Shown in pieces: positions 1-40,590 of a stretch of 40,590 nucleotides of DNA. This DNA is from a virus: IMG/VR virus record IMGVR_UViG_3300035698_003720, positions 1 through 40,590 of that record, one strand, 5' to 3'. A program made the translations under genes and the position numbers. Within the stretch, counting starts at the first letter, position 1; every line of letters starts with the position of its first letter. A model generated the notes under the pieces. That model was not told the origin of the DNA. It did not search any database and saw nothing but the letters and a program-made list of their open reading frames with translations.

Positions 1-26
1 ATGCTTTGTCAGGAGGCACTGAATGA
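1..26 (+). CDS. 3' end of small Cys-rich protein gene (partial)
   Basis: These bases encode the last residues ALSGGTE and a TGA stop. They are identical to the end of the complete gene at 39960-40163, so this is that gene's 3' end seen again at the left edge. Its stop overlaps the ATG of the metallophosphoesterase gene, exactly as at the right end of the window. Confidence 0.7.
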
Positions 27-453
27 ACATCGCGCCAGTGCAGGAGATCACGCTCAAGAGCAGCAACGATTACATAGACCTGTGGAACATCGCTGACGTG
101 CATCTCGGCTCGGCACTGTGTGACGAGGCCCTGCTTGCGCGCGTCATCAAGGCCATTCAGAAAGACCCGCACGCGCGCTGGATCGGGTGCGGCGATTACT
201 GCGAGTGCATCACACCGCACGATAAGCGGCGCTTCGACCCGAGGACGCTCGCGCCCTGGATCGAGATGGACGACCTGCGGCAAGTGGTCTATCGTCAGGT
301 GGACGAGTGCTGCAAGCGGTTCAAGCCGATTGCGTCAAAGTGCCTCGGCATTGCGGCAGGCAACCATGACGATGAGGCGACAAAGCACTATGGCATTCCC
401 ACCGCCTCGGCATTCGCCGCCGCCATGAAGGCACCCTACCTCGATTACTATGG
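1..453 (+). repeat. Terminal near-repeat, left copy
   Basis: Positions 1-453 match 40138-40590 with 24 mismatches and no gaps. The first 105 and last 79 bases are identical; all mismatches lie between 106 and 374. This fixes a unit length of 40,137 bases if the molecule is circular or permuted. Confidence 0.85.
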
Positions 454-2573: not shown

Positions 2574-2822
2574 ATGAAAGACGCAAAGGCAATCGGCGCG
2601 GAGATGGCCCGCGTGTTGCAGCACGTGCTCGACATGGAAGATGACTCATACCTCAGCGGCCACCCCGAATGGGAAGCCATCGCAGATGAGGCGCGTGCCG
2701 CGTTGAGTGACCGCGCCGGATTCGTTGGCCCCCAGTGCTACAACTGCGCCCACCACCCCAACGAATGCGCCGAGTGCGTCGCCGCGTGGAAGGCCGACAA
2801 CACAATGGCCCATGCCCAATGA
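2574..2822 (+). CDS. Small Cys-rich protein, putative zinc ribbon
   Basis: An 82-residue protein with a helical first half and a C-terminal cluster C-x2-C-x6-C-x2-C followed by Trp, suggesting a small zinc-binding module. The chosen start follows AAGGAG with six to seven bases spacing. The frame is open to the leaderless ATG at 2526, adding MKNEAHN and linker. Its stop overlaps the start of the HTH gene (ATGA), so the two are probably coupled. Confidence 0.6.
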   Translation: MKDAKAIGAEMARVLQHVLDMEDDSYLSGHPEWEAIADEARAALSDRAGFVGPQCYNCAHHPNECAECVAAWKADNTMAHAQ

Positions 2823-3019
2823 CCGGCCACGAGCTACGCATCATCCGCACCGAGTGCGGCATGACCCAGCGCGCGCTCGGCCTGCGCCTCGGGCTGTCAC
2901 CGATCAGCGCGCAGGTCGCGGTGTGCCGGTGGGAGACTGGCGCACGCCGCATCACGCCACCGACCGCGACGGCAGTGCTGCTCATTGTCGGCCCTGAGAA
3001 TCGAGAAAGTAATGCTTGA
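2819..3019 (+). CDS. XRE/Cro-type HTH regulator, 66 aa
   Basis: A 66-residue protein with the look of a Cro/C1-type domain: ELRIIR, then MTQRALGLRLGLS as helix 2 and turn, then CRWETGARRI where the W-E-x-G signature of phage repressors is expected, ending in a hydrophobic helix. A few extra residues separate the recognition helix from the turn. It is the only regulator-like gene seen. Its stop TGA lies inside the -35 box of promoter P3, so it could autoregulate through the nearby CACGG-N6-CCGTG sites. That link is inference. Confidence 0.7.
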   Translation: MTGHELRIIRTECGMTQRALGLRLGLSPISAQVAVCRWETGARRITPPTATAVLLIVGPENRESNA

Positions 3020-3044
3020 CACGGCGCAATCCGTGATGTAATAT
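3016..3044 (+). promoter_or_regulatory. Sigma-70 promoter P3 with operator dyad
   Basis: TTGACA at 3016-3021, 17 bp, TAATAT at 3039-3044. The dyad CACGG-CGCAAT-CCGTG at 3020-3035 keeps the arms seen in P1 and P2 but has a different centre, which argues that the arms are what is selected. The predicted start is near 3051. The upstream HTH gene's stop is within the -35 box. Confidence 0.8.
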
Positions 3045-8504: not shown

Positions 8505-8791
8505 CGATAATCACCGGACGATCACACGCCGCGAAGATCGGCAACAGCACGAGATTGCAGCGCGTGCTGCGCTACCTGCTCGACGGGCAGAAGCATACCA
8601 CCATGGACATCGTGCGGGCGCTCAATCGGTGCGCGCCCCACAGCGACATCCACGAGCTGCGGTGTAACGGCGTCGAGATAGAACGCGAGCAGTGGTGGTT
8701 CGCCGGTCGGCCCGTGCACGCGTACTGGATTCCAGAGCACGCGCTCGCGTCGGCCAGGGCAATGCTGCACGCGTGCGGGGGTGACGCGTGA
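8501..8791 (+). CDS. Winged-helix-like phage protein, 96 aa
   Basis: The central part, RLQRVLRYLLDGQKHTTMDIVRALN...DIHELRCNGVEIE, reads as a winged-helix fold of a kind often found in phage genomes: helix, helix-turn-helix, then an ELR-x-NG-x-I-E strand. It probably binds nucleic acid. It lies directly before the helicase gene, overlapping it by four bases. Confidence 0.65.
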   Translation: MTIITGRSHAAKIGNSTRLQRVLRYLLDGQKHTTMDIVRALNRCAPHSDIHELRCNGVEIEREQWWFAGRPVHAYWIPEHALASARAMLHACGGDA

Positions 8792-10179
8792 CATACAGCA
8801 ACTTCCTCAGTGGCAAGTCTCAGCTTGCGGGTCAATTTGGCTTTGACCCGGTGTGGATGCCCGACTCGCTGTATCCGTTCCAGCGTGCGCTTACCGAGTG
8901 GGCCACACAGAAGGGGCGCGCGGCAATCTTCGCAGACTGCGGGCTCGGCAAGACCCCCATTCAGCTCGTGTGGGCAGAGAACGTGGCCAGATATTCCGGG
9001 GGGCGCGTGTTGATTCTCGCCCCGCTGGCCGTGGCCTTCCAGACAGTCAGGGAGGGCGACAAGTTCGGCGTCGATGTTGTGCACCGGCGCGACGGCATCA
9101 AGCGCGGTGATCGGATCGTAGTTACAAACTACGAACGGCTGCACCACTTTAGCCCGGATGATTTTGAGGGCGTGGTGTGTGACGAGTCAAGCATCCTCAA
9201 GAATTTCGATGGCGAGACCCGCAAGTCCATTACAGACTTCATGCGCACCAGGCGATACCGGCTACTGTGCACGGCGACCGCCGCGCCGAACGACTTTGAC
9301 GAGCTAGGCACGTCGTCAGAGTGCCTTGGCGATCTTGGGTGCCGTGACATGCTCACGCGATTCTTCACGAACAATGGCGCGTTCATATCCCGCACAGGTG
9401 GCACCGCTGGCCGGTTCTGGAACGCCGCCATGAAGGCCAGCGTGTACATGCTTCGCCCGCACGCGGAGCACGACTTCTGGCGGTGGGTATGCTCGTGGGC
9501 GCGCGCAGTGCGCAAGCCGTCAGACCTTGGCTTTGATGATGGCGACTTCATTCTGCCTCCCATGAACATCAACCAACACACCGTGAAGGCGTCAACCCCG
9601 AGGGCCGGATACATGTTTGACCTTCCTGCCGTGGGGCTACGGGAGCAGCGGTCAGACCTCAGGCGCACGATTGACGAGCGTTGTGACATGGCGGCAGCGC
9701 TAATCAATGCACACGACCGGCCTGCGCTTGCGTGGTGCAACCTCAACGGCGAGGGCGACCTGCTCACAAAGTCAATCCCCGGTGCCGTGCAGGTGTCTGG
9801 CCGAGACACAGAGGAACACAAAGAGGAATCGTTTTCGCGCTTTGTGGCGGGCGACATTCGGGTGATAGTGACCAAGCCGCGCATCGGTGGGTTCGGCCTG
9901 AACTTCCAGCACTGTGCCCATCAAACCTACTTCCCATCCCATAGCTACGAGCAATACTACCAGTGTGTTCGGCGGTCGTGGCGATTCGGGCAGACGCGTC
10001 CCGTCACAGTTGACATGATTACCACCGATGGACAGTCTGACGTATTGGCCAACTTGCACCGGAAGTCTGCGCAGGCCGAGGTCATGTTTGACAAGCTCGT
10101 GGAGATGATGTGGAAGGAACTTCACATCGAGCAGGACAACCCATACACCAGCAAAGAGGAGGTGCCGCAATGGCTGTAA
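8788..10179 (+). CDS. SNF2/DEAD-type superfamily II helicase
   Basis: A 463-residue ATPase. Walker A is GLGKT at 52-56, motif II is CDESS at 131-135, motif III is TATAAPND at about 162-169, and motif VI is RRSWRFGQTRPV near residue 397. The Q-R-x2-R-x-GQ style of motif VI and the TATP-like motif III fit SNF2-family phage helicases. It probably remodels or unwinds DNA during replication or recombination. GTG/ATG choice: the ATGA-like overlap at 8788 fits the operon. Confidence 0.85.
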   Translation: MTYSNFLSGKSQLAGQFGFDPVWMPDSLYPFQRALTEWATQKGRAAIFADCGLGKTPIQLVWAENVARYSGGRVLILAPLAVAFQTVREGDKFGVDVVHRRDGIKRGDRIVVTNYERLHHFSPDDFEGVVCDESSILKNFDGETRKSITDFMRTRRYRLLCTATAAPNDFDELGTSSECLGDLGCRDMLTRFFTNNGAFISRTGGTAGRFWNAAMKASVYMLRPHAEHDFWRWVCSWARAVRKPSDLGFDDGDFILPPMNINQHTVKASTPRAGYMFDLPAVGLREQRSDLRRTIDERCDMAAALINAHDRPALAWCNLNGEGDLLTKSIPGAVQVSGRDTEEHKEESFSRFVAGDIRVIVTKPRIGGFGLNFQHCAHQTYFPSHSYEQYYQCVRRSWRFGQTRPVTVDMITTDGQSDVLANLHRKSAQAEVMFDKLVEMMWKELHIEQDNPYTSKEEVPQWL

Positions 10180-11174
10180 AGGAACAGACAATAACCCCGC
10201 GATACGCTCTATACAACGGCGACTGTATTGACGTGATGGGGTCTCTCCCAGACGACTCGGTTGACATGTCAGTCTATAGCCCGCCGTTCTGCGGGCTGTA
10301 CAACTACAGCAGCGCGCCGGGCGACCTGAGCAACTGCCGCAGCTATCAGGAGTTCTTCGTGCATTACGGGTACGTCATCGCAGAGGTGGCGCGGTTGACG
10401 AAGCCGGGCCGGGTATCTGCGGTTCACGTAATGGACGTGCCCGGGCGCGGCAACGGCGAGACCGCAAAGATGGGGTGTGGGGCCAACGTCGGGACCGGGC
10501 TGATCGACTTCCCCGGTGACGTAATCAGGGCGCACGAGGCGCAGGGTTTCGTGTTCGCCGGTCGCCGTGCCATCTGGAAAGAGCCGCTCGGCGTACGCAA
10601 CAGGACAATGGCCAAGGGGCTGGCACACAAGCAGATCGTGGACGATAGCACCCTGTGTGACGTGGCGAGCGCCGACTACCTTCTCATGTTCCGCAACAAA
10701 GGCGACAACACAGTGCCAGTGACCCACCCGGTAGGGCTGCTGGCATACGCAGGCGAGCGCGGCATTCCCGGCGACCTGCACCAATACAAAGAGTACAGCG
10801 GCAAGCAGACCGCGAACAGGTACAGTCATTGGATCTGGCGACAGTACGCGTCAAGCGTATGGGACGACGTGCGCCTTGACCGCGTGCTGCCCTACAAGCA
10901 AAGCCGTGACGCAGATGACGAGAGGCACGTCCACCCGCTGCAACTGGACGTCATTGAGCGCGCGTGCGTGTTGTGGAGTAACGAGGGAGAGACGGTCCTA
11001 ACGCCATTCATGGGCGTGGGCTCTGAGGTGTTCGGCGCTGTGGAAAACGGTCGGCGCGCTATCGGCATCGAGTTGAAGCCAGCGTACTACAACCAAGCGG
11101 TGCGCAACATGGCCGCCATCGGGCAAATCAAAGAGACGCCGCACCTGTTCGCGGCGCAATCGGAGGGCGAATAA
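10170..11174 (+). CDS. DNA methyltransferase (N4-cytosine/N6-adenine type)
   Basis: A 334-residue enzyme. The catalytic motif IV SPPF (37-40) comes first and the SAM-binding motif FMGVGS (about 279-284) comes near the end followed by IGIEL, the order of beta-class amino-methyltransferases. SPPF allows N4-cytosine or N6-adenine specificity. No partner nuclease is nearby, so it probably protects phage DNA. It overlaps the helicase gene by ten bases. Confidence 0.85.
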   Translation: MAVKEQTITPRYALYNGDCIDVMGSLPDDSVDMSVYSPPFCGLYNYSSAPGDLSNCRSYQEFFVHYGYVIAEVARLTKPGRVSAVHVMDVPGRGNGETAKMGCGANVGTGLIDFPGDVIRAHEAQGFVFAGRRAIWKEPLGVRNRTMAKGLAHKQIVDDSTLCDVASADYLLMFRNKGDNTVPVTHPVGLLAYAGERGIPGDLHQYKEYSGKQTANRYSHWIWRQYASSVWDDVRLDRVLPYKQSRDADDERHVHPLQLDVIERACVLWSNEGETVLTPFMGVGSEVFGAVENGRRAIGIELKPAYYNQAVRNMAAIGQIKETPHLFAAQSEGE

Positions 11175-11576: not shown

Positions 11577-11795
11577 ATGGACGGCCAGCATACAAAGCCG
11601 CGCCCGCTTGACGAGCACGGCGAGTGGTGGCACGCGTGCATCGTGGTGGGCCTGCCGCTCACGCTGTTGGCGCTCATGGCGCTATACGCCACGCAAGGGC
11701 TCTGGCGGCGTCCGTGGGCGCTGTTCGTGGGCCTGTGGCCCGATAGCAAGAGCCCGCGCGCAAAGCACCGCAGGCGGCACGGAAGGGTGACTTGA
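11577..11795 (+). CDS. Small membrane protein, 72 aa
   Basis: A 72-residue protein with one clear hydrophobic segment (about 21-42) and a second weaker one (43-53), ending in a very basic tail (KSPRAKHRRRHGRV). The stop TGA falls inside the -35 box of the next promoter, so the operon ends exactly where P4 starts. Confidence 0.6.
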   Translation: MDGQHTKPRPLDEHGEWWHACIVVGLPLTLLALMALYATQGLWRRPWALFVGLWPDSKSPRAKHRRRHGRVT

Positions 11796-11820
11796 TATGG
11801 GCGGCGGCATGTGGTACAAT
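11792..11820 (+). promoter_or_regulatory. Sigma-70 promoter P4 for the structured RNA and replication genes
   Basis: TTGATA at 11792-11797, a 17-bp spacer and TACAAT at 11815-11820. The predicted start is near 11827, one base before the first arm of the RNA element. It lacks the CACGG-N6-CCGTG operator of the early promoters, so it may be constitutive, as expected for an immunity RNA. Confidence 0.8.
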
Positions 11821-11827
11821 GATAAGC

Positions 11828-11936
11828 GTAATACAGGACAGGCCCATGCACACACATCACAAACAATCAGCCGCGCCGGTGAACACGATACCCACCCCAC
11901 GGGCTATCCTGTATTACACATCGGTAGCGGCTGATT
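11828..11936 (+). ncRNA. Candidate C4-like interleaved RNA element 2
   Basis: Stem 1 pairs 11828-11845 with 11901-11917: 11 perfect pairs, a mismatch, then five more pairs around a bulge. Stem 2 pairs AATCAGCCGC (11865-11874) with GCGGCTGATT (11927-11936), ten perfect pairs, followed by TTTT. The pairs are interleaved (a'-b'-a-b), so all four arms together give a pseudoknot; alternatively a'-b' is an antisense RNA acting on a-b, as in P1 C4 and P4 CI RNA. The element starts at the predicted transcription start and ends ten bases before the ribosome site of the next gene. Confidence 0.7.
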
Positions 11937-11956
11937 TTCTATGTCGGGAGATATGA
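11846..11956 (+). CDS. Possible 36-aa leader ORF inside the structured RNA
   Basis: An ATG-to-TGA frame of 36 residues crosses the RNA element and ends in a TGATG overlap with the next gene. It has no ribosome site of its own that I can see. Like the frame at 3268-3384, it encodes V-A at the last arm (SVAADF here, RVARLV there). This hints that the two elements are related or that the frame is translated to control coupling. Confidence 0.3.
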   Translation: MHTHHKQSAAPVNTIPTPRAILYYTSVAADFLCREI

Positions 11957-12246
11957 TGAACGACATGGACCGATACGGCAGCGCAGGGCACATTCTTGCC
12001 GGAATCATAGACAAGCGGAAGAACAATCGTGGCATTACCACCGAGGAGGCAGATTGGATACTGAGAAGGCTGCGCGGCGCGCTCGATGCGTATCGCGGGT
12101 GGCACGCGCGGTGCACCGGCATGACCCGAGTTGGTGAAAGGTGTATGCTTCCTTCCGACGCCCCGTATGACATCGACATGGATGGGTTCGTGCTGGGACA
12201 GAGTGACCGCTGCGAGCTTCACAAGGAACCCGTGGACCATGAATAA
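11956..12246 (+). CDS. Hypothetical protein, 96 aa
   Basis: A 96-residue protein, helical in the first half, with Cys residues at C54, C64 and C86 and His near the end that could bind metal. I chose the ATG at 11956, five bases after GGGAG; 11941 and 11953 are too close to or before that site. It is the first gene after the RNA element and overlaps the replication gene by eight bases, so it may be the regulated leader gene of the replication operon. Confidence 0.6.
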   Translation: MNDMDRYGSAGHILAGIIDKRKNNRGITTEEADWILRRLRGALDAYRGWHARCTGMTRVGERCMLPSDAPYDIDMDGFVLGQSDRCELHKEPVDHE

Positions 12247-13048
12247 GTCGCCAGCCTACCAGTTCTATCCTGATAAATGGGATAGCCACACGCGCCACCT
12301 CAGCGATTCGGCCTACCGCGTCTACCATCAGATGCTCAACTGGATGTGGCAGCACGCGCCGGACCAGTGCTCCATGCCGACCGCGCCAGCGGCCATCTCT
12401 ATCATGCTGGCGACCACGCGAACCACCGTTGAAGCAGCCTTGGGTGAGATACAGAACGAGCACATGAAGCTGCTCCAGGAATCCGGCGGCAAGTACGTGT
12501 CTGTCGGGCTGAAGAAAGAAGCGAGAAAACAGGCGGAGTGGCGTGCCAAATCGAGTCGCGGCGGCAAGGCACCACGTAACCCTAAGCCAGACAAGGGAGA
12601 TACGGGCGAACCACCCTTGAACGACCCTTCAACCAAAGGGGTAAGCAAAGGCGAACCAAAAGGGAACACTCTATCTCTGTCTCTATCTCCGTCTCTATCT
12701 CCATCTCTTGAAGAGAAAGAGAGAGAAGGCGCGCGCTCGATCTCTCCTGATCTCAAGCAAGCGTTCTTCGAGATAAGCACGAGCATGAGCGTGCTGGGCG
12801 GTTGGCTTGACACGTACCCTCGTGACGGGGCCGTGCTCTACGCGATCCGCAAGGCGCTCGCTCGTGGCAACAAGGCACCGGCCTATGTGAGCGGGATACT
12901 CAAGGGCATGGCGCGGGACGGGTACGCCGAGATGGACCGCGACGGGGGTGGCGAGGAGATCGACCCGGTAGCCATGGCGGAACGGCTGAGGCTTGCCGAG
13001 ATACGAGAGGATAAGTTCGCGGAATCTCAGAGAAAGGGAAAACGATGA
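12239..13048 (+). CDS. DUF1376-type replication protein
   Basis: A 269-residue protein. Residues 1-95 match the DUF1376 winged-helix domain of phage replication initiators: AYQFYPDKWDS, a YRVYHQMLNWMW helix and a later KYVSVGLKKEARKQAEWRAKSS. A low-complexity linker (about 100-160) includes a Ser-Leu-Pro repeat encoded by 12-bp iterons. The C-terminal part (165-269) is helical and may contact the helicase or loader. The layout recalls lambda O, where the origin lies within the initiator gene. The start overlaps the preceding gene. Confidence 0.75.
   Translation: MNKSPAYQFYPDKWDSHTRHLSDSAYRVYHQMLNWMWQHAPDQCSMPTAPAAISIMLATTRTTVEAALGEIQNEHMKLLQESGGKYVSVGLKKEARKQAEWRAKSSRGGKAPRNPKPDKGDTGEPPLNDPSTKGVSKGEPKGNTLSLSLSPSLSPSLEEKEREGARSISPDLKQAFFEISTSMSVLGGWLDTYPRDGAVLYAIRKALARGNKAPAYVSGILKGMARDGYAEMDRDGGGEEIDPVAMAERLRLAEIREDKFAESQRKGKR
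12669..12704 (+). repeat. Three 12-bp iterons, candidate replication origin
   Basis: Three tandem units read CTCTATCTCTGT, CTCTATCTCCGT and CTCTATCTCCAT, differing at two positions. They are followed at once by a purine-rich run (GAAGAGAAAGAGAGAG) complementary in character, giving a sharp pyrimidine/purine strand switch. Lying in the linker region of the putative initiator gene, they could be its binding sites. They may also be only a low-complexity coding repeat. Confidence 0.45.
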
Positions 13049-15520: not shown

Positions 15521-15739
15521 ATGAGTGACAAGCTGACCGACGAGGAGTTGGCGCACATGCTTGCGGAGCTTCGCGAACGCGCAGAGAAGGCAGGGGCTGA
15601 TGTTGAGCGGCTACGGAAGATATTAGACGTGCAAATCAAGTCCGTGGTGGAGCACGTTGAAGCCCTCCGCGAATTGGAAGGGAAGCTGAACATCAAGCCC
15701 GACCAACTTGACACGGTAAGAATTACCGCCCCAACTTGA
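15521..15739 (+). CDS. Coiled-coil protein, 72 aa
   Basis: A 72-residue, almost fully helical protein. Its last codons overlap the late-promoter region: the coding sequence includes one operator and the TGA stop lies in the -35 box at 15736. The last gene of the early/middle block. Confidence 0.55.
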   Translation: MSDKLTDEELAHMLAELRERAEKAGADVERLRKILDVQIKSVVEHVEALRELEGKLNIKPDQLDTVRITAPT

Positions 15740-15815: not shown

Positions 15816-15858
15816 GCCCTACACGGCCAACACCGTGCGGGGCGCGTGTCTTTACACG
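15816..15858 (+). promoter_or_regulatory. Hairpins in the leader of the terminase operon
   Basis: GCCCTACACGG (15816-15826) pairs with CCGTGCGGGGC (15833-15843) over ten of eleven positions with a 6-base loop. A second small hairpin, CGTGT/ACACG with loop CTTT, follows at 15845-15858. They stand in the untranslated leader just before the small terminase gene and could affect message stability or translation. There is no U-run, so termination is less likely. Confidence 0.5.
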
Positions 15859-29408: not shown

Positions 29409-29419
29409 GAGAGACTGAC

Positions 29420-29788
29420 ATGGCAGCGATTGCAGGGAAGCTCGGGAACGTCGTGTTTGCGGCTGGCTACGACGACAACCCGTTCCAATGGCAGATCAGC
29501 TCGGCGGCCGAGATTCTGGACACTACCCCGTTCAGCCCGGCGTCCAACTTCATGACCAACACTACGGGCCTGCTCTCGTGGAGCGGCAGCTACCAGGCGT
29601 GGCTCGATGACACCGTGGCGCTGCCCACTGCGGGCGACTCTGGCGCGGCCACTCTCACGGCGCACACTGGCCGCACGTATGCGGGCACAATCACCGTGAG
29701 CGAGTACGACGTCAACGTGTCCACGGACGGCGCGAGCCGCGTGGCTACCGTGACGTTCACCGGGACCGGCGTACTCACCGGCGCATAG
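29420..29788 (+). CDS. Major tail tube protein, copy 1
   Basis: A 122-residue beta protein. It contains WQISSAAEILDTTPF, GLLSWSGSYQAW and VNVSTDGASRVATVTFTGTG, which fit a siphovirus tail-tube subunit. A second gene directly downstream encodes a protein identical at 96 of 122 positions by my count. The start follows GGAGAGACTGAC. Confidence 0.75.
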   Translation: MAAIAGKLGNVVFAAGYDDNPFQWQISSAAEILDTTPFSPASNFMTNTTGLLSWSGSYQAWLDDTVALPTAGDSGAATLTAHTGRTYAGTITVSEYDVNVSTDGASRVATVTFTGTGVLTGA

Positions 29789-29803
29789 ACACAGGAGACA
29801 GAC

Positions 29804-30172
29804 ATGGCTGCAATTTCTGGCAAGACCGGCAACGTGGCGCTGGTGGGCGGGTACGTAGACAACCCGTTCCAGTGGCAAATCTCTAGCGCCGCCGAGATAC
29901 TTGACACCACGCCATTCACACCGGCGTCGGACTTCATGACCAACACGACCGGCTTGCTCTCGTGGACCGGGAGTTATCAGGCATGGATCGACGGGACGAC
30001 CCCGCTGCCGACCGCTGGCACGGCTGGCGCGGTGACGCTTACGTCATCAGCCCTGCGCACATACACGGGCAACGTGATCGTGAGCGAGTACGATGTCAAC
30101 GTATCGACGGACGGCGCTAGCCGCGTGGCTACCGTGACGTTCTCAGGCACAGGCGTTCTCACTGGCGCGTAG
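29804..30172 (+). CDS. Major tail tube protein, copy 2
   Basis: A 122-residue tail-tube-like protein, a tandem duplicate of the preceding gene. Differences cluster at residues 5-18 and 62-91; the core strands and the last 30 residues are nearly unchanged. Two tube subunits might mix, or one may serve a different part of the tail. Confidence 0.75.
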   Translation: MAAISGKTGNVALVGGYVDNPFQWQISSAAEILDTTPFTPASDFMTNTTGLLSWTGSYQAWIDGTTPLPTAGTAGAVTLTSSALRTYTGNVIVSEYDVNVSTDGASRVATVTFSGTGVLTGA

Positions 30173-30191
30173 ACCTCAAAGGAGATGGGCT

Positions 30192-39959: not shown

Positions 39960-40163
39960 ATGAGGGACACATGCAGCGCGTGCGCACACTGGGAAGCAAC
40001 CACTGACGGCGAGGGCCACTGCTATGCCGCCCCTCCTGTGCCGGTGTTCGACGGTGGCGCGGAGGAGATTATCAGTTTCCGCCCATGCGTTGCCGACAGT
40101 GACCGAGCGTGCGGCGCGTTCAAGGCGCGCGGGAGCGATGCTTTGTCAGGAGGCACTGAATGA
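39960..40163 (+). CDS. Small Cys-rich protein, 67 aa
   Basis: A 67-residue protein with CSACAHW, GHCYAAP, PCVADSDRACGAF: several Cys that could bind metal. The start follows AGGAG with seven bases spacing. Its stop overlaps the next ATG. The final 26 bases recur at positions 1-26 of this window. Confidence 0.6.
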   Translation: MRDTCSACAHWEATTDGEGHCYAAPPVPVFDGGAEEIISFRPCVADSDRACGAFKARGSDALSGGTE

Positions 40164-40590
40164 ACATCGCGCCAGTGCAGGAGATCACGCTCAAGAGCAG
40201 CAACGATTACATAGACCTGTGGAACATCGCTGACGTGCATCTGGGCTCCGCGCTCTGTGACGAGGCCCTACTGGCACGCGTCATCAAGGCCATGCAGCGA
40301 GACAAGCACGCGCGCTGGATCGGGTGCGGCGACTACTGCGAGTGCATCACCCCGCACGATAAGCGGCGCTTCGACCCGAGGACGCTCGCGCCCTGGATCG
40401 AAATGGACGACCTGCGGCAAGTGGTCTATCGTCAGGTGGACGAGTGCTGCAAGCGGTTCAAGCCCATCGCGTCAAAGTGTTTAGGCATCGCGGCTGGCAA
40501 CCACGACGATCAGGCGACAAAGCACTATGGCATTCCCACCGCCTCGGCATTCGCCGCCGCCATGAAGGCACCCTACCTCGATTACTATGG
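40138..40590 (+). repeat. Terminal near-repeat, right copy
   Basis: The right copy of the 453-base near-repeat; see the left copy at 1-453. It contains the end of the Cys-rich gene and the start of the metallophosphoesterase gene. Confidence 0.85.
40160..40590 (+). CDS. Metallophosphoesterase, second (partial) copy
   Basis: This is the first 143 codons of the gene at 23-895, cut by the window edge. It keeps the D-x-H, GD and GNHD motifs. Compared with the copy at the left, 24 bases differ in the shared 453-base overlap, and four residues change, so most changes are silent. It may be the same locus in a mixed population or a genuine tandem paralogue. Confidence 0.7.
   Translation, partial: MNIAPVQEITLKSSNDYIDLWNIADVHLGSALCDEALLARVIKAMQRDKHARWIGCGDYCECITPHDKRRFDPRTLAPWIEMDDLRQVVYRQVDECCKRFKPIASKCLGIAAGNHDDQATKHYGIPTASAFAAAMKAPYLDYY

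Follow-up and report, generated by a model that had tools for sequence, protein, structure and literature searches.

A phage leader with two crossing RNA helices is a candidate cis-acting control of coupled replication genes

RNase P processing yields C4, a trans-acting RNA of about 77 nt. IncI/IncB-type plasmids such as ColIb-P9 control repZ/repA through a leader peptide combined with a pseudoknot, and in the alpha operon the S4 site illustrates how a pseudoknot placed where translation begins can govern an operon by way of coupling. The mechanism of C4 has been described in P1 (PMC5320573), I-complex plasmids make their initiator only when a leader peptide is translated (PMC10286972), and the ribosome site of MS2 is transiently accessible before folding (PMC6733600). 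Here we describe a leader in the virus record IMGVR_UViG_3300035698_003720, whose 40,590 bases (62% G+C, with all accepted genes on the + strand) are the window analyzed here. A sequence-only reading of this window had described the leader as a C4-like RNA switch in front of a replication operon. By analogy, the logic of the control proposed here most nearly resembles the leader-peptide control of the I-complex and the transient access of MS2.

We confirmed that the promoter and the two crossing arm pairs proposed by that reading are real, and we detected ribosome sites and overlapping frames directly downstream or within the arms (Table 1). The promoter-like sequence TTGATA-17-TACAAT, from which transcription had been proposed to start at about 11827, is present with a TG before the -10 box and, by our own scoring, is the third-best forward promoter match across the 40.6-kb window. 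It lies directly 3' of the upstream gene, the stop of which overlaps its -35 box. Promoter scoring near the leader revealed no evident antisense promoter, the best minus-strand site scoring at background. The coordinates and complementarity of both arm pairs were reproduced, and from about +1 the arms follow one another in the crossing order a', b', a, b. The a':a helix consists of 11 perfect pairs followed by a C.A mismatch and a bulged G, for 16 pairs in total (-23.2 kcal/mol). The b arms had been described as a core of 10 pairs, which is present and perfect but too short: the full helix of 11865-11881 with 11919-11936 reaches 17 pairs with A11926 bulged (-27.3 kcal/mol), and once b is extended to 11919, arms a and b are separated by one nucleotide rather than ten.

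Table 1. Positions of the leader elements and of the genes and repeats that follow them in the window.
Feature	Position	Strand	Description
Sigma-70 type promoter	11792-11820	+	TTGATA-17-TACAAT with extended -10 (TG); sequence match, inferred start ~11827
Arm a'	11828-11845	+	transcript 5' end; holds the AGGA ribosome site of the leader frame (11835-11838)
Leader reading frame, 36 aa	11846-11956	+	MHTHHKQSAAPVNTIPTPRAILYYTSVAADFLCREI; stop overlaps next start (TGATG)
Arm b'	11865-11881	+	core 11865-11874, extension 11875-11881
Arm a	11901-11917	+	pairs with a'
Arm b	11919-11936	+	core 11927-11936; A11926 bulged; pairs with b'
Predicted hairpin, 9 bp with 14-nt loop	11938-11969	+	loop carries GGAG (11947-11950) and the start codon of the 11956 gene
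Gene of unknown function, 96 aa	11956-12246	+	starts at the leader-frame stop
DnaD/primosomal helicase-loader-like gene, 269 aa	12239-13048	+	overlaps the 96-aa gene by 8 bases
Tandem repeats of 11-, 11- and 12-base units	12608-12708	+	sequence repeats inside the loader gene

The leader frame opens with ATG seven bases downstream of the AGGA within a', and its stop (11954-11956) overlaps the ATG at 11956 in the sequence TGATG (11954-11958), so that the small frame does end exactly at the next start, as first reported. Overlapping or abutting junctions of this kind are common in this phage (23 of the 45 listed). In its codon use the leader frame does not resemble a gene: its GC3 of 0.53, versus 0.77, is lower than in 99% of real gene segments, though base pairing also constrains these codons, and a protein family scan of its product returned no family match. 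Because of this codon use, translation of the frame, rather than its peptide, would matter. The replication gene is the second gene after the leader frame: its DnaD-like, loader-like product matches PHROG 9327 (E=1.4e-9) and PHROG 186, with weak DUF1376 and DnaB_2 matches under the Pfam cut-offs. The 11956 gene itself has no assigned function; its 96-aa product had no match in Pfam, PHROG, or NCBIfam and no significant relative among phages or viral contigs. The three short tandem-repeat sets within the loader gene are a candidate replication origin.

The leader shares with C4 of P1/P7 (RF01695) a single promoter region, two arm pairs per transcript, and targets shortly before a ribosome site. 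Arm b ends nine bases before the GGGAG of the next gene, whose coupling to the regulated gene would be through overlap only. The Rfam search that the sequence-only reading had proposed as a check was run with P1 as the positive control for both the C4 (RF01695) and c4-a1b1 models. The C4 model recovered P1 at 68.8 bits (E=3.6e-13), and c4-a1b1 was also found there, but neither model matched the leader at the gathering threshold or at E values up to 10. A relaxed Rfam search returned mir-26 alone, far under its cut-off, and nothing relevant. The arms of P1 are nested in the order b', a', a2, b2 (at 280, 294, 324, and 353 of sequence L142), in contrast to the crossing order of the leader, and the supposed small RNA part at 11827-11900 folds at -8.4 kcal/mol, compared with -41.1 kcal/mol for the compact P1 C4. 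Because the covariance model, the arm order, and the fold energy all disagree, we ruled out that the leader belongs to C4, and the C4-like identity first claimed for it is not supported. A trans-acting RNA of the C4 type, whose 5' part carrying a' and b' would be cut off and base-pair with arms a and b on other copies, blocking the replication genes as immunity or copy control, would fit the P1-like plan of a promoter and short arms whose partners lie close in front of a ribosome site, and the geometry allows two helices to join separate molecules; the same three differences, together with the lack of a known processing site, nonetheless make this explanation improbable. Arm order and fold should be checked before complementary arms in front of a ribosome site are labeled C4.

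Folding predictions for the growing transcript suggest a different role for the arms. When only nested folds are allowed, which leaves a pseudoknot with both helices outside the calculation, the ribosome site of the leader frame is predicted to be open up to about 11908, shut by a:a' at transcript ends 11912-11930 (accessibility falling from ~0.6 to 0.17), and reopened from 11932, when b:b' displaces a:a'. In longer transcripts, downstream pairing is predicted to cover this site partly, leaving the final state of the leader uncertain. The two crossing helices could also coexist because their arms do not overlap, and we estimate from helix rise and linker length that the 19-base linker between a' and b' would be sufficient for a pseudoknot, which is a candidate structure here. 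The hairpin at the start of the 11956 gene is predicted in both constrained folds of 11827-12000, and the predicted fold at that gene's ribosome site is the same whichever of a:a' or b:b' forms, which counts against the control proposed below.

We propose, with a probability of roughly 45%, that the leader acts in cis: pairing of a with a' would hide the ribosome site that serves the leader frame and, through the proposed coupling of that frame to the genes behind it, would limit replication output. Transcription would begin at about 11827, and while the first ~75 bases were being made, the ribosome site inside a' would be open and usable. Synthesis of arm a would then allow a:a' to shut the site, and synthesis of arm b would allow b:b' to form, which would take the place of a:a' or interlock with it in a pseudoknot. 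Any ribosomes that translate the leader frame would melt both helices, halt at the overlapping stop and start, and re-initiate on the 11956 gene, whose own overlap with the helicase-loader gene would pass translation on. Output of the replication gene may then reflect a race between ribosome loading and folding of the leader, possibly tuned by a factor that favors one fold. The earlier interpretation is partly supported: RNA structure gating replication is plausible, the suggested alternative of a pseudoknot switch fits best, and the C4 component does not hold.

Among described systems, the repZ/repA leaders of IncI/IncB plasmids are similar in having a short frame before a replication gene that ends at the next start, in a pseudoknot that the two predicted crossing helices may form here, and in that making the replication protein would require the leader to be translated (PMC10286972). 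They differ in that the plasmid gene encodes a RepZ/RepA-type initiator, whereas the phage leader is followed by the 96-aa protein and a DnaD/DUF1376-like loader, has much longer helices, and has no evident antisense promoter. The leader of the MS2 maturation gene resembles the predicted behavior of the phage leader in that its ribosome site is open while the RNA is being made, until sequence farther along masks it (PMC6733600), but it is a cloverleaf in an RNA phage, whereas the window comes from a DNA phage and has a leader frame and two crossing helices. The pseudoknots of ribosomal-protein leaders (S4, alpha operon) differ in being bound by protein; the phage leader is unrelated to them in sequence and shape, and no protein is known to bind it. 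If the proposed control is real, a leader that folds on itself, and neither a repressor nor an antisense RNA, would set how much helicase loader this DNA phage makes, as a phage counterpart of plasmid copy-number leaders.

Long complementary arms can also arise without any function. Perfect crossing stems summing to 21 pairs, as found here, were reached in none of 3000 dinucleotide shuffles of the leader, for which the largest sum was 18, and at up to three mismatches the only other copy of the a' sequence in the window is its partner, against an expectation of 0.05 matches. Under a third-order Markov model of the window, one comparable crossing case arose in 2 Mb, while 2.29 Mb of phage DNA (partly self-overlapping) contained three distinct cases with a sum of at least 21, including the leader itself (11828-11936). 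The leader as a whole folds with z=-3.3. Since comparable pairs are uncommon but not unique genome-wide, the weight of the arms lies in their exact placement: they take up the sequence from a promoter that ranks among the top three forward matches to the ribosome site that follows it. Crossing stems with a sum of at least 19 do turn up at a rate of a few per Mb in phage DNA, and no conservation is on record for the arms, but the shuffles and this precise placement make chance a very unlikely explanation. We found no homologous leader, and hence no covariation, in viral contigs, bacterial genomes, or phage or plasmid collections, and 28 exact matches to the arm pattern in viral contigs were read as chance because of their low similarity and mostly coding-like context. 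Relatives recovered through the DnaD-like protein, portal, terminase, methyltransferase, 96-aa protein, or shared promoter sequence carried neither the leader nor the 96-aa gene or loader; terminase relatives were found at about 45%, and bacterial genomes searched by terminase gave no match.

The fold may instead be a shape recognized by a protein. Such a translational operator, in which a phage or host protein (for example, a product of the operon that shuts off its own synthesis) binds the crossing fold or the hairpin in a manner comparable to ribosomal-protein leaders, is possible though unlikely: the loop that presents the ribosome site and start codon of the 11956 gene and the 96-aa protein encoded directly after the leader would both suit it, but the leader has no known protein partner, the 96-aa protein is not linked to RNA binding, and two helices of 16-17 bp exceed what most protein sites need. 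Because a' begins at the inferred +1, the 5' end of the transcript would be double-stranded, and the a:a' helix might therefore serve simply to shield it from decay with the remainder incidental; the second crossing helix and the ribosome site inside a' would go unexplained, however, and we regard a role in mRNA stability as very unlikely. We give equally little credence to the arms as a DNA element, a set of paired inverted sites for a DNA-binding protein that would loop the promoter or act at an origin. The arm centers lie 73 and 62 bp apart by their coordinates, near whole helical turns, just 3' of the start site and with the candidate origin repeats nearby, but the arms are not palindromic, a search of the window for a DNA-operator family of the arms found no likely further copy, and the evident operators of this phage (CACGG-N6-CCGTG) look quite different. 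A retron, which also has paired 5' and 3' arms, was dropped as there was no reverse transcriptase among the scanned proteins.

The absence of an integrase or full-length repressor had been taken to fit RNA-based control. We likewise found no integrase among the proteins scanned, a subset of the ORFs, but the argument from a missing repressor is weakened because the window encodes a 66-aa HTH_3 protein and carries palindromes inside three other promoters. This HTH_3/XRE-type protein (2819-3019), assigned by PHROG as a transcriptional regulator, is a candidate repressor of these sites, and a truncated near-copy of the 5' end of its gene is found at 2408-2457. Exact CACGG-N6-CCGTG palindromes lie between the -35 and -10 boxes of strong promoters at 1512-1540, 2491-2519, and 3016-3044, and on this sequence evidence they are likely operators. 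A fourth exact copy is located at 15822-15837, 3' of a promoter at 15736, and with up to one mismatch there are 13 matches in the window versus 3.9 expected. The 11792 promoter contains no such palindrome. Two of the palindrome-bearing regions, 1480-1567 and 2459-2546, are a duplicated 88-base segment of promoter plus start (95% identity) with the start codon at the inferred transcription start, a leaderless arrangement, and a third partial copy at 1837 lacks the promoter.

Crossing helices also occur at the starts of other phage genes, and in two instances the gene encodes a Zn-ribbon-like protein. In phage sequence L108 (253-351), crossing helices of 11 and 14 pairs lie inside a 49-aa frame that stops just short of the following gene; in L138 (815-887) they directly follow the start codon of a helicase; and in L133/L134 (11185-11278) the start codon is inside an arm. 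Across the 2.29 Mb of phage DNA, 7 of 18 crossing cases were near gene starts, a weak excess over the base rate of 18.5%, and searches for homologues of the best of these other cases found none. It seems doubtful that two long crossing helices at a short upstream frame coupled into early or replication genes form a leader kind, as yet undescribed, that recurs in unrelated phages.

Upstream of the leader, a helicase and DNA methyltransferase pair (8788-11174) is common to more than 400 viral contigs and to Synechococcus phage S-H1, without its neighbors; the leader and the genes after it were absent from the best 80 of these viral contigs. The two ends of the window (1-453 and 40138-40590) repeat in exact register without gaps at 94.7% identity, which suggests that the genome is complete and two variants of it were assembled together, or else that its ends are genuinely duplicated. 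Farther downstream, at 29411-30174, two adjacent 122-aa genes are tandem duplicates with a 384-base period and are 74-84% identical.
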